Shown here in pieces: positions 20,254 to 38,803 of a stretch of 38,803 nucleotides of DNA (position 1 is the first letter of the stretch; the number at the start of each line of letters is the position of its first letter). Location of the stretch: assembly GCA_030147925.1 (NCBI GenBank), contig JASBUK010000143.1, positions 1 to 38,803 on the forward strand. Reading direction: 5' to 3'. The translations under genes and the position numbers were made by a program. Under the pieces are notes generated by a model, which worked only from the letters and a program-made list of their open reading frames with translations, did no database searches and was not told the DNA's origin. The DNA is from Trueperaceae bacterium. GTDB taxonomy: Bacteria; Deinococcota; Deinococci; Deinococcales; Trueperaceae.

Positions 20254-20309
20254 TTTAGTAATTAGAAGGTTATAACCAATATTTAGTAATTAGAAGGTTA
20301 TAACCAATA
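20254..20309. repeat. 28-bp perfect tandem duplication between nuoA and nuoB
   Basis: Two identical 28-bp units, 20254-20281 and 20282-20309, abut exactly. Each contains the 10-bp palindrome GGTTATAACC and ends in CCAATA; an AATATTGG segment just upstream is its inverse. The region is much AT-richer than the surrounding nuo genes. It may be a regulator or attenuation site, or a neutral duplication. Confidence 0.85.
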
Positions 20310-20341
20310 TAGAGCCGCTAAGCAAAGGCCAATTACTCCTT

Positions 20342-35964: not shown

Positions 35965-36470
35965 TGGAAGAGTCGTCCATAACTGGCACTCTCGTCTGGT
36001 ACTACGCCATCTGCCCCCGTGAATGCTGGCTTATAGCTCATCAGATCGAAGCCAATCAAGACGATGACCTTTTGGACCAAGGTCGCCTCAACACCGAAGC
36101 CCACTACGAACGCGAAGGTAAAGAAATCACCCTACCCGGCGGTGTTCGCGTTGACAAGGTGCGCCGTGAAAATGGCCAACTTATCATTAGCGAGATCAAG
36201 AAAAGCAGTAAATTCTTGCCCGCGGCCAAATTACAGCTTGCTTATTATCTGTGGATTTTGGAGCAAGAGAGCGTTCTGGCGAGTGGTGAAGTGCTGGTGC
36301 CCGAAGAGCACAAACGGGAAGTGGTGCTTTTAGAAGAAATGCGCGAGGAGCTTAAGCGCGCCATGCAAAACATAAAAGACATCGTTAACAAGACTAAACC
36401 GCCAGAGGCCAGCTGGATTCGTTATTGCAAGACCTGCGCCTATGCTGAATTCTGCTGGAGCGGAGAATGA
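35964..36470 (+). CDS. cas4: Cas4 exonuclease (PAM processing in adaptation)
   Basis: The 168-aa RecB-like nuclease trims prespacers and selects PAM-containing ends. The [4Fe-4S] cysteines are all present: Cys17 (or Cys21) near the start and Cys155, Cys158 and Cys164 (CKTCAYAEFC). The nuclease motif is seen as Asp64 (GGVRVDKV) and Glu77-x-Lys79 (ISEIKKS). The ATG at 35964 shares one base with the cas3 stop (TAATG); a GTG 27 bp upstream lies inside cas3 and adds nothing conserved. GC content rises sharply from here. It overlaps cas1 in ATGA. Confidence 0.93.
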   Translation: MEESSITGTLVWYYAICPRECWLIAHQIEANQDDDLLDQGRLNTEAHYEREGKEITLPGGVRVDKVRRENGQLIISEIKKSSKFLPAAKLQLAYYLWILEQESVLASGEVLVPEEHKREVVLLEEMREELKRAMQNIKDIVNKTKPPEASWIRYCKTCAYAEFCWSGE

Positions 36471-37459
36471 AAAAACCCCTCTACATAGTCAACAACGGCA
36501 CGCTTAAACGCTACCAAAACACCTTGCGCTTCGAATCCGCCAAAGGCAAACGCCCCGTGCCCATAGAAAGCACCAGCGAAATTCATGTCTTTGGCGAGGT
36601 GGATATAAACACCAAGGCACTAAACTTCCTTACCCAAAATCACGTCCCCTTGCATGTTTACAACTACTATGGCTACTACGCTGGCTCGTATATGCCTCGT
36701 GAGCAATATGTGAGCGGTTATCTGACGCTGCAACAAGCCACGCACTACAACCTTGCCAGCAAAAGGCTCGAGCTTGCTAAATCATTCATACTAGGAGCCC
36801 TGCGCAACATAGAAAAAGTGCTGATGTACTACCAGCGGCGCAGCACCAACCTAAACAAAATCTTAGAAGGCGTCCGCGAAGCAATCAGTCTTATTCCTAA
36901 CCAAGACAGTATTGAAACCCTGATGGCCCTAGAGGGCAACGCAAGACAAGTCTATTACCAGGCCTGGGACCAAATTTTGAACAATGCCGATTTCCAGTTT
37001 GAAGGTCGTAGCAAACGCCCACCCCTAAACCGCATCAATGCCCTGATAAGCTTTGGCAACAGCCTGATGTATGTCAGTTGCCTATCCGAAATTTACAAAA
37101 CACATCTAGACCCTCGCATCGCCTTTTTGCACACCACCAACTACCGCCGCTACAGCTTAAACCTAGACCTAGCCGAAATTTTCAAACCCATAGTGGTTGA
37201 CCGGGTAATCTTCAGCCTCATCAATAAAGGAATGCTAACAGCCAAGAGCTTCCAAAAAGACTCGGGAGGAATTTTCCTCAAAGACAGCGCCCGCCAAACC
37301 TTTCTAAAAGCCTACGACACCCGCCTAAAAGACACCTTGCACATTCCCAGACTAAAACGTAACGTCTCATACAAACGCCTCATAAGGATGGAATGCTACA
37401 AACTGGAAAAACACTTAATTGATGATGAAGCCTATATCCCCTACGTGGCCAGATGGTAA
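36467..37459 (+). CDS. cas1: Cas1 spacer integrase
   Basis: The 330-aa type I-B Cas1 integrates new spacers with Cas2. The catalytic metal ligands are Glu156 (LEGNARQVYY), His222 (FLHTTNYRRYSL) and Glu237 (DLAEIFKP). Length is normal and no domain is fused. It overlaps cas4 by 4 bp. Composition is host-like and a GCTCGAGC copy is present at 36766. Cas2 normally follows directly; here an S23-type gene lies between them. Confidence 0.96.
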   Translation: MKKPLYIVNNGTLKRYQNTLRFESAKGKRPVPIESTSEIHVFGEVDINTKALNFLTQNHVPLHVYNYYGYYAGSYMPREQYVSGYLTLQQATHYNLASKRLELAKSFILGALRNIEKVLMYYQRRSTNLNKILEGVREAISLIPNQDSIETLMALEGNARQVYYQAWDQILNNADFQFEGRSKRPPLNRINALISFGNSLMYVSCLSEIYKTHLDPRIAFLHTTNYRRYSLNLDLAEIFKPIVVDRVIFSLINKGMLTAKSFQKDSGGIFLKDSARQTFLKAYDTRLKDTLHIPRLKRNVSYKRLIRMECYKLEKHLIDDEAYIPYVARW

Positions 37460-37464
37460 AGAAT

Positions 37465-37499
37465 GAGAAGCTATGAGCAATGAGGGAAAAGCAATGAGT
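37465..37499 (+). repeat. left heptamer array of the S23 cassette
   Basis: Five tandem heptamers in phase: GAGAAGC, TATGAGC, AATGAGG, GAAAAGC, AATGAGT. The array starts 6 bp after the cas1 stop and provides both the ribosome binding site (GAGGG) and the start codon of the S23-type gene. It is the inverse of the array at 37871-37898. Confidence 0.75.
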
Positions 37500-37865
37500 G
37501 GGGGTGTGCAGCGCTTTGAAGATTTGATAGCCTGGCAAAAGTCAAAAGAGCTATGCAAGAATATATATCGCGTGACACACATAGGCAAATTTGCTAAAGA
37601 CCTTGGTCTGTCAAGACAAATTCAACGGGCATCGGTGTCAGTGATGTCAAATATTGCCGAAGGTTTCGAACGCGGCAGCACCCCAGAATTTCACCGTTTT
37701 GTGACGATGGCCAAAGCATCTTGTGCGGAAGTTCGCTCGCAATTATACATTGCTTATGAAATCGACTATTTGGATAAAACGATGTTTAAGCAACTCATAA
37801 ACCAGGCCGAAGAAGTCTCAAGAATCCTAGGTGGTCTAAAGGCCTCTCTAGCAAAAAAACTATGA
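37494..37865 (+). CDS. four-helix-bundle protein (23S rRNA intervening-sequence S23/Avd family)
   Basis: The 123-aa protein has the family marks [19 protein letters not shown] near the start and SNIAEGFER at 52-60, and it is predicted all-helical. Relatives are encoded inside 23S rRNA intervening sequences or as the Avd accessory protein of diversity-generating retroelements; most stand-alone copies have no known role. The ATG at 37494 has GAGGG 7 bases upstream; an earlier in-frame ATG at 37473 would translate part of the repeat array. It interrupts the usual cas1-cas2 junction and is bracketed by inverted heptamer arrays, like an inserted cassette. A role in spacer acquisition is possible but nothing in the sequence shows it. 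Confidence 0.88.
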
Positions 37866-37870
37866 CCCTA

Positions 37871-37898
37871 GCTCATCACTCATTGCTCAAGACTCATT
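37871..37898 (-). repeat. right heptamer array of the S23 cassette
   Basis: Read on the minus strand, four heptamers follow in phase: AATGAGT, CTTGAGC, AATGAGT, GATGAGC. Positions 37878-37901 are complementary to 37476-37499 at 19 of 24 bases (two perfect blocks of 10 and 9 with a 5-base mismatch between). It starts 5 bp after the S23 stop and ends 7 bp before the cas2 ATG. Confidence 0.75.
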
Positions 37899-37905
37899 GC
37901 TGATT

Positions 37906-38169
37906 ATGTACATCATCATGGTTTATGACGTTGGCGTTGACCGGGTTGTCAAAGTCCTCAAAAAAGGTAGGCAATACCTCACCCACGTGCAAAACTCTTT
38001 GCTAGAAGGCGAATTGTCTCCTGGTCAATTCAAACGCCTTAAGCACGAAGTTGCTAAAATAATTGACGACACACATGACACCGTGATGTTCTATGTTCTA
38101 CGCTCAGAGAACTATCTTGATAAACAGCGCTTAGGCGTCGCCACCAACGAACCCGATGATTTCTTGTAG
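37906..38169 (+). CDS. cas2: Cas2 adaptation protein
   Basis: The 87-aa ferredoxin-fold protein is the structural partner of Cas1 in spacer integration. The start MYIIMVYDVGVDRVVKVLK has the conserved Asp8 after the first strand, and the second half has HDTVMFYVLRSE. I choose the ATG at 37906; the frame is open 9 bp further to a TTG, but that lies inside the heptamer array. No Shine-Dalgarno sequence is present because the array occupies the region directly upstream, so cas2 translation may be weak or depend on termination in the S23-type gene. The CRISPR leader follows. Confidence 0.94.
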   Translation: MYIIMVYDVGVDRVVKVLKKGRQYLTHVQNSLLEGELSPGQFKRLKHEVAKIIDDTHDTVMFYVLRSENYLDKQRLGVATNEPDDFL

Positions 38170-38348: not shown

Positions 38349-38803
38349 GTTTTTAGCTTTCCTATGAGGAATTGAAACGATGTTCTCGAGCAGCAAATGG
38401 CACGAATTGCCGAGTTTTTAGCTTTCCTATGAGGAATTGAAACCGGACATCGTTTTTCCCTGCGATGGTCCACCCAAGAGTTTTTAGCTTTCCTATGAGG
38501 AATTGAAACTTGCCGGAACATCAACTTGATAACGCTCGAGTTGCAGTTTTTAGCTTTCCTATGAGGAATTGAAACTTGGCAGCTAACCATTGCTCCAGTC
38601 CAGCGATCTTGCGTTTTTAGCTTTCCTATGAGGAATTGAAACGGTAGCTCTTGAGGATCAAAAAGTCTAAAGCTCTCAGGTTTTTAGCTTTCCTATGAGG
38701 AATTGAAACACGGCATTTTCGGATTGAGTACCGGTGGCGACGCTGAGTTTTTAGCTTTCCTATGAGGAATTGAAACCTGGCCAGCCGAAGGAAGGCTGAG
38801 CCA
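38349..38803 (+). CRISPR. CRISPR array, type I-B repeat, 7 repeats, cut by the window end
   Basis: Seven identical 30-bp repeats begin with GTTTTTAGC and end with ATTGAAAC, at 38349, 38414, 38480, 38546, 38613, 38680 and 38747. The centre holds a small stem, TTCCT/AGGAA with a 3-nt loop. Six complete spacers are 35, 36, 36, 37, 37 and 37 bp, and a seventh is cut at 38803. The ATTGAAAC end matches the usual 8-nt crRNA handle of type I-B (and many type III) systems. The leader and cas2 lie to the left, so transcription runs rightwards and the newest spacer is the first. The perfect repeats suggest recent activity. The minus-strand ORF over this region is only the repeat read as protein. Confidence 0.98.

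Follow-up and report, generated by a model that had tools for sequence, protein, structure and literature searches.

The window, meaning here the whole 38,803-nt stretch of Trueperaceae DNA that was analysed, contains adjacent cas1 and cas2 genes that are separated by an S23-type gene, itself flanked by inverted heptamer arrays. The preliminary description of this DNA had reported this arrangement, and profile matches and coordinates now bear it out. The features of the locus are as follows.

36467..37459, + strand: cas1 (type I-B), the upstream host gene
37460..37905, + strand: the whole cassette, 446 bp, which separates the stop codon of cas1 from the start codon of cas2, bounded on the basis of the empty site in the relative G024 (L089)
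37469..37499, + strand: left arm, 31 nt, five units at 7-nt spacing, by direct reading
37473..37865, + strand: S23/four-helix-bundle gene (PF05635, TIGR02436), 130 aa from the first ATG
37871..37901, − strand: right arm, 31 nt, five inverted units, reverse complement AGCAATGAGTCTTGAGCAATGAGTGATGAGC
37906..38169, + strand: cas2, the downstream host gene, with its start aligned to cas2 of L089

The ORF between the arms scores 125.5 bits against PF05635 (E 1.3e-36, cut-off 33.8) and 117 bits against TIGR02436 (4e-34, cut-off 24), which places it in the S23 family. It is the sole ORF between the arms, and no transposase, reverse transcriptase or nuclease is present in the cassette. It is also the only S23 gene in the window's genome, and no further copies of the window's own heptamer were found elsewhere in that genome with the exact pattern used. 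The left array at 37469-37499 (AGCTATGAGCAATGAGGGAAAAGCAATGAGT) comprises five in-phase units, as had been described, which read AGC TATG AGC AATG AGG GAAA AGC AATG AGT. A GAGGG Shine-Dalgarno sequence and the ATG at 37494 both lie within this arm, in agreement with the earlier proposal that the array provides the ribosome binding site and start codon, and this ATG is more likely to be the start of the S23 gene than the first ATG. In the right array, previously counted as four units, one unit had been missed, and the distance from its end to the ATG at 37906, the likely start of cas2, is 4 bp and not 7 bp. The two arms are complementary at 20 of 31 positions in the unshifted register, and the figure of 19 of 24 complementary bases given earlier is reproduced at one register. 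Among 3000 random pairs taken from the window at equal spacing, 2 (about 0.07%) show complementarity as good as this, and none of 1000 shuffles does.

Two other repeats were observed in the window. A CRISPR array of at least seven repeats (38349-38776) lies directly 3' of cas2 and matches Rfam CRISPR-DR2 on the minus strand; CRISPR repeats were the only matches in the Rfam scan. A 28-bp tandem pair with perfect copies, TTTAGTAATTAGAAGGTTATAACCAATA, is located at 20254-20310.

In a set of 39 genomes from the window's family, G024 has a Cas1 78% identical to that of the window and shows the cas1-cas2 junction without the cassette, for which the preliminary description had proposed a search. Here, the start codon GTG of cas2 directly follows the cas1 stop codon TAG, with no spacer (L089: ...gaggtggTAG, then GTGtacgtcatcatgg...). 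Because cas1 directly abuts cas2 in a relative with so similar a Cas1, the cassette can be bounded at 37460-37905, and the difference between the two junctions is a 446-bp segment holding both arms and the gene. Three S23 genes are present in G024, all of them away from cas1-cas2. We infer that the difference at cas1-cas2 represents a gain rather than a loss, a direction read from only two such systems.

The S23/four-helix-bundle family, frequently encoded in bacterial genomes, is known mainly as an rRNA curiosity. The nearest known relative of the window cassette is the S23-coding intervening sequence (IVS) of 23S rRNA. In Coxiella burnetii, this IVS of 428 nt has an S23 ORF and complementary ends, is described as selfish, and has three to four heptameric repeats ahead of the ORF (PMC4990558). 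The cassette and the IVS share a protein family, a similar size and complementary ends around one ORF. However, the window copy lies between cas1 and cas2 and not inside a 23S rRNA gene, and the examined S23 loci with neighbouring genes sit behind or between protein genes rather than in rRNA helices. The arms of the cassettes also differ, as they are arrays of about five heptamer units that change in sequence and carry no sign of RNA-stem selection. The earlier idea of a small cassette akin to the IVS stands to the extent that the cassette is discrete, contains a gene of the same family and is inserted between protein genes, but support is lacking for the part that has the arms serving as an RNase III-type RNA stem.

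The flanks of S23 genes were examined for arms more broadly: for each gene, 150-180 nt of preceding sequence was compared to the following 150-185 nt taken in reverse complement. In a first set of 80 relatives from many phyla, obtained in a scan of public genomes and picked by similarity to the window protein, 67% scored above the 99th percentile of control positions, compared to 7.7% when flanks were cross-paired between different loci. Because this set had been chosen by similarity to the window protein, an unselected subset was also taken, consisting of S23 genes identified by family profile, some from the window's phylum and others from three S23-rich genomes; arms were detected in 38 of these 55 genes, whereas control positions passed in 1.2% and cross-pairs in 2.6%. 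Over all distinct S23 loci, matched inverted arms are present in 70% of 138, from many phyla; of 738 control genes drawn from this DNA, 2.7% have them, which amounts to a 26-fold enrichment over control genes in the same loci. Similar flanks at further S23 genes, which the preliminary description had proposed to look for in the host genome, are thus found in other genomes. The approximately 30% of S23 loci that lack arms by this flank comparison count against reading the cassette as a mobile element.

The match between left and right arms is specific to each locus, since cross-pairings match in just 2.6-7.7%. The heptamers themselves vary almost completely among loci (AGTGCTG, AGGACTG, AGTTCCG, GTCCAAA, GTCTTAC, GCTGATA, GAAATTT and others), and in G039 the S23 copies of a single genome differ in heptamer while both arms of each copy agree. 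With such variety, it is difficult to see how one protein family could bind the heptamers sequence-specifically, which also counts against a mobile element. Arm similarity exceeds 0.5 in 41% of locus pairs with at least 65% amino acid identity and in 0% of pairs below 50%, so that arms are alike between unrelated sites only where the proteins are related, as is expected if gene and arms travel together. Among plasmids, 25 records contain S23, most of them cyanobacterial; phage records gave no S23 match. L054, L060, L061, L063 and L075, which are labelled as different bacterial groups, have one S23 cassette in common, in a gene context that they also share and that is probably (as judged by eye) a restriction-modification locus; this sharing may reflect either recent transfer or bin contamination.

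In 98 cassettes, five is the modal number of units at 7-nt spacing in both left arms (46) and right arms (38), and five-five is the commonest left-right pair; this count permits one mismatch in the 3-nt core, and the mode is four when exact cores are demanded. A period of 8 nt in place of 7 was observed in the arms of L212, L038, L069 and L207, the first three by eye. The median arm-to-arm length of the cassettes is 485 bp. The gene-strand face of both arms is C-poor (0.15, versus 0.29 upstream), and the orientation of the arms is therefore fixed. Unit variants follow a mirrored order in the two arms, with a mean score of 23.0 versus 18.0 after unit shuffling (p = 3.5e-12, a statistic inflated by the choice of arms for high score). 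The nearest solved structures to the window S23 protein, 2gsc (3e-17) and 2rld (4e-4), have five chains each, and a Xanthomonas S23 structure is a homopentamer as cited in the Coxiella paper (PMC4990558). Five units and five subunits together suggest that one arm unit may correspond to one S23 subunit.

Two known systems invite comparison on these grounds. TRAP, the trp RNA-binding attenuation protein, is a ring protein whose subunits each bind one of a series of short, evenly spaced repeats; the likeness is one of analogy only, between five units and the five subunits of S23, and the TRAP fold is unrelated to that of S23. Avd, the accessory protein of diversity-generating retroelements, is a pentameric four-helix-bundle protein that has the same fold as S23 and binds nucleic acid, but the S23 cassette contains neither a reverse transcriptase nor a template repeat. 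Movement driven by a reverse transcriptase was rejected, PF00078 being absent from 19 of 27 S23-positive genomes.

With neighbouring genes taken from simple ORF calls, the nearest upstream gene is codirectional in 86 of 95 cassettes (p = 7e-17). In 76 of those 86 cases its stop codon lies no more than 40 bp from the left arm, and in 31 it falls inside this arm. No preference was detected in the orientation of the downstream neighbour (52 of 91). Across S23 loci, the left arm overlaps the S23 start or precedes it by a few tens of nucleotides. Sense insertion behind a stop codon would mean that transcription of the upstream gene extends to the cassette. No target-site duplication was found above control, the best direct repeat across the ends being 3.35 nt versus 3.20 nt in cross-paired ends.

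Filled, empty and swapped sites were compared in 18 genomes of Meiothermus, a genus name deduced from those relatives in the group that carry names (Calidithermus, Thermaceae). The junction between acyl-CoA dehydrogenase and etfB, genes named by eye from sequence, contains an S23 cassette in 6 genomes, a decayed cassette with intact arms in 1 and no S23 in 10, and was not found in the remaining genome. At a second junction, an S23 cassette is present in 2 of the 18 genomes. To either side of their cassettes, the genomes G092 and G100 share about 98% identity, whereas the S23 genes are 59% identical at the nucleotide level and the heptamers differ; identity falls and recovers exactly at the outer arm ends. 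The G092 S23 gene is nearest to that of G099 (76% nucleotide identity), whereas the G092 flanks are nearest to those of G100. This swap could have arisen by recombination in the near-identical flanks if the breakpoints were very tight, a consideration that counts against a mobile element. In Nitrosomonadales, orthologous S23 genes are found between rfbB and rfbA in four species, and both arms have shifted jointly from the AGTGCTG to the AGGACTG type. The arms thus also evolve in concert in place, and such a joint change needs no movement, which again counts against mobility. Of the hallmarks of a transposon, the cassettes possess filled and empty sites with precise boundaries as well as terminal inverted repeats, in the form of inverted arms with mirrored unit order at the ends, but they have no transposase of their own.

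Smaller versions of the cassette are also present. In six genomes without S23 at the second Meiothermus junction, a short palindrome of two inverted heptamer arms occupies the site. A mini-element is likewise found at the first junction in G084, similar mini-elements of 50-100 bp occur at other places in G092, and a further junction has mini-elements in most of Meiothermus. Decayed mini-elements are found in some S23-negative genomes too, and are counted against the mobile-element reading. The S23-less mini-elements resemble REP/BIME and MITE-type elements in being 50-100 bp long, palindromic, intergenic, located by stop codons and multicopy in some genomes, but differ in that they are built of heptamer units, which in the best cases match those of resident S23 cassettes. 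In G095 (L397), a heptamer mini-element is interrupted by a 625-bp insert that carries other repeats and has no S23 frame recognisable by eye.

Arrays of AGCNNAT were counted in whole genomes. There are 69 in G092 and 89 in G099, the two genomes with GCTGATA-type arms at the first-junction S23 cassette, versus 0-31 in other S23-positive and 0-7 in S23-negative Meiothermus (p = 0.005, a value that ignores phylogeny, which may confound it). When arrays were counted de novo in four Meiothermus genomes, over 400 kb of each, the two with S23 did not differ clearly from the two without it, so the link between S23 and arrays rests on the one-heptamer whole-genome count. Heptameric intergenic repeats have been described before, including TAACTGA in Beggiatoaceae (PMC4679880) and GGGAATC in Xanthomonas, where there are 70-75 inverted convergent pairs (PMC4692102). 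These simple repeats share period 7 and an intergenic position with the arms, but S23/four-helix-bundle genes are unmentioned in the text of either paper, whereas the arrays considered here are linked to S23. Long solo heptamer arrays of 4-20 units were also observed dispersed at gene 3' ends in G057, G049 and G041 (L161-L180), often between convergent genes and mostly with no adjacent S23 gene.

The probable explanation of the locus, with the action of S23 on the arms included, is a minimal mobile S23 cassette whose arms are terminal inverted repeats at the DNA level. The anatomy of the cassette, its recurrence, the empty and swapped sites, the S23-less mini-versions and the arms that travel with the gene are matters of observation. 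One S23 gene between two inverted arms would form a widespread mobile cassette of about 430-560 bp that settles directly behind a stop codon in sense orientation, and would often bring its own stop and start signals; the window copy would have landed exactly between cas1 and cas2. By analogy with the solved relatives, an S23 homopentamer may act on the arms with one subunit per unit, either holding or moving the element, while a host enzyme would carry out the cutting and joining. The mini-elements without S23 could then be moved in trans.

A more far-reaching proposal can be offered only tentatively, as something short of probable. S23 could be the protein that binds the ends of very small mobile elements forming a new class, in which a pentameric ring reads the five units of each arm, the protein and its arms are transferred jointly to sites close to stop codons across phyla, mini-elements are moved in trans, and the 23S rRNA IVS is a special case that resides in rRNA.

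Alternatively, the arms might serve an autoregulatory function like that of TRAP, in which an S23 pentamer wraps the five left-arm units in its own mRNA, where they overlap the Shine-Dalgarno sequence and start codon, and so blocks translation, with the right arm acting as an antisense switch. The modal unit number, the five chains of the solved relatives, the location of the left arm at or shortly before the S23 start and the C-poor transcribed strand of that arm (0.15 versus 0.29 in flanks) are all consistent with such a mechanism. It is nevertheless unlikely, as the right arm, which is the complement in RNA, is kept as well as the left, and the S23-less mini-elements and swapped cassettes are left unexplained.

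Less likely again is an RNA cassette of the IVS type, whose arms would pair in the transcript and be cut by an RNase III-type enzyme. Such a cassette would be tolerated because the host mRNA is uncoupled or processed, and S23 would be an RNA-binding partner. The ends of 23S rRNA IVSs with an S23 gene do pair into a 28-bp stem that RNase III cuts, and heptameric repeats precede the Coxiella S23 ORF (PMC4990558); the sense orientation behind a gene also fits. The predicted RNA of the window pairs the arms, so that processing is possible, though it is not indicated, and the fold is only weakly better than that of shuffles (z −1.9). Pairing in sense RNA should tolerate G-U but not A-C mismatches, yet the arms of 98 cassettes have 101 mismatches of the G-U type and 154 of the A-C type, a ratio similar to that of arms compared out of register (290 and 384). 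Selection for a sense-RNA stem is accordingly unsupported, as is the earlier claim that the arms exist to form an RNase III-type stem.

It is very improbable that the arrays are by-products that polymerase slippage and template switching leave in intergenic DNA, with S23 genes among them by chance: of the long simple repeats in many bacteria, those with a heptamer unit are the most frequent (reviewed in PMC4679880) and many arrays in some genomes do not adjoin S23 genes, but the 26-fold enrichment at S23 genes, the fixed orientation, the number of about five units and the exact cassette boundaries speak against this.

The widespread heptamer-armed S23 cassette, read as a mobile element, is apparently an undescribed kind of small element. 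Among open-licence PMC articles, neither a description of such cassettes outside rRNA nor a paper linking heptamer arrays to S23 genes was found. The cassette in the window parts two genes that abut in a close relative, cas1 and cas2, and it may therefore alter CRISPR adaptation. If the rule holds, approximately 70% of S23 members would be the gene of one recognisable mobile cassette, and the family would gain a role that can be put to the test. The surplus of 7-nt repeats long noted in bacterial genomes would also be explained in part, and rRNA intervening sequences would be recast as one niche of a larger class of elements.
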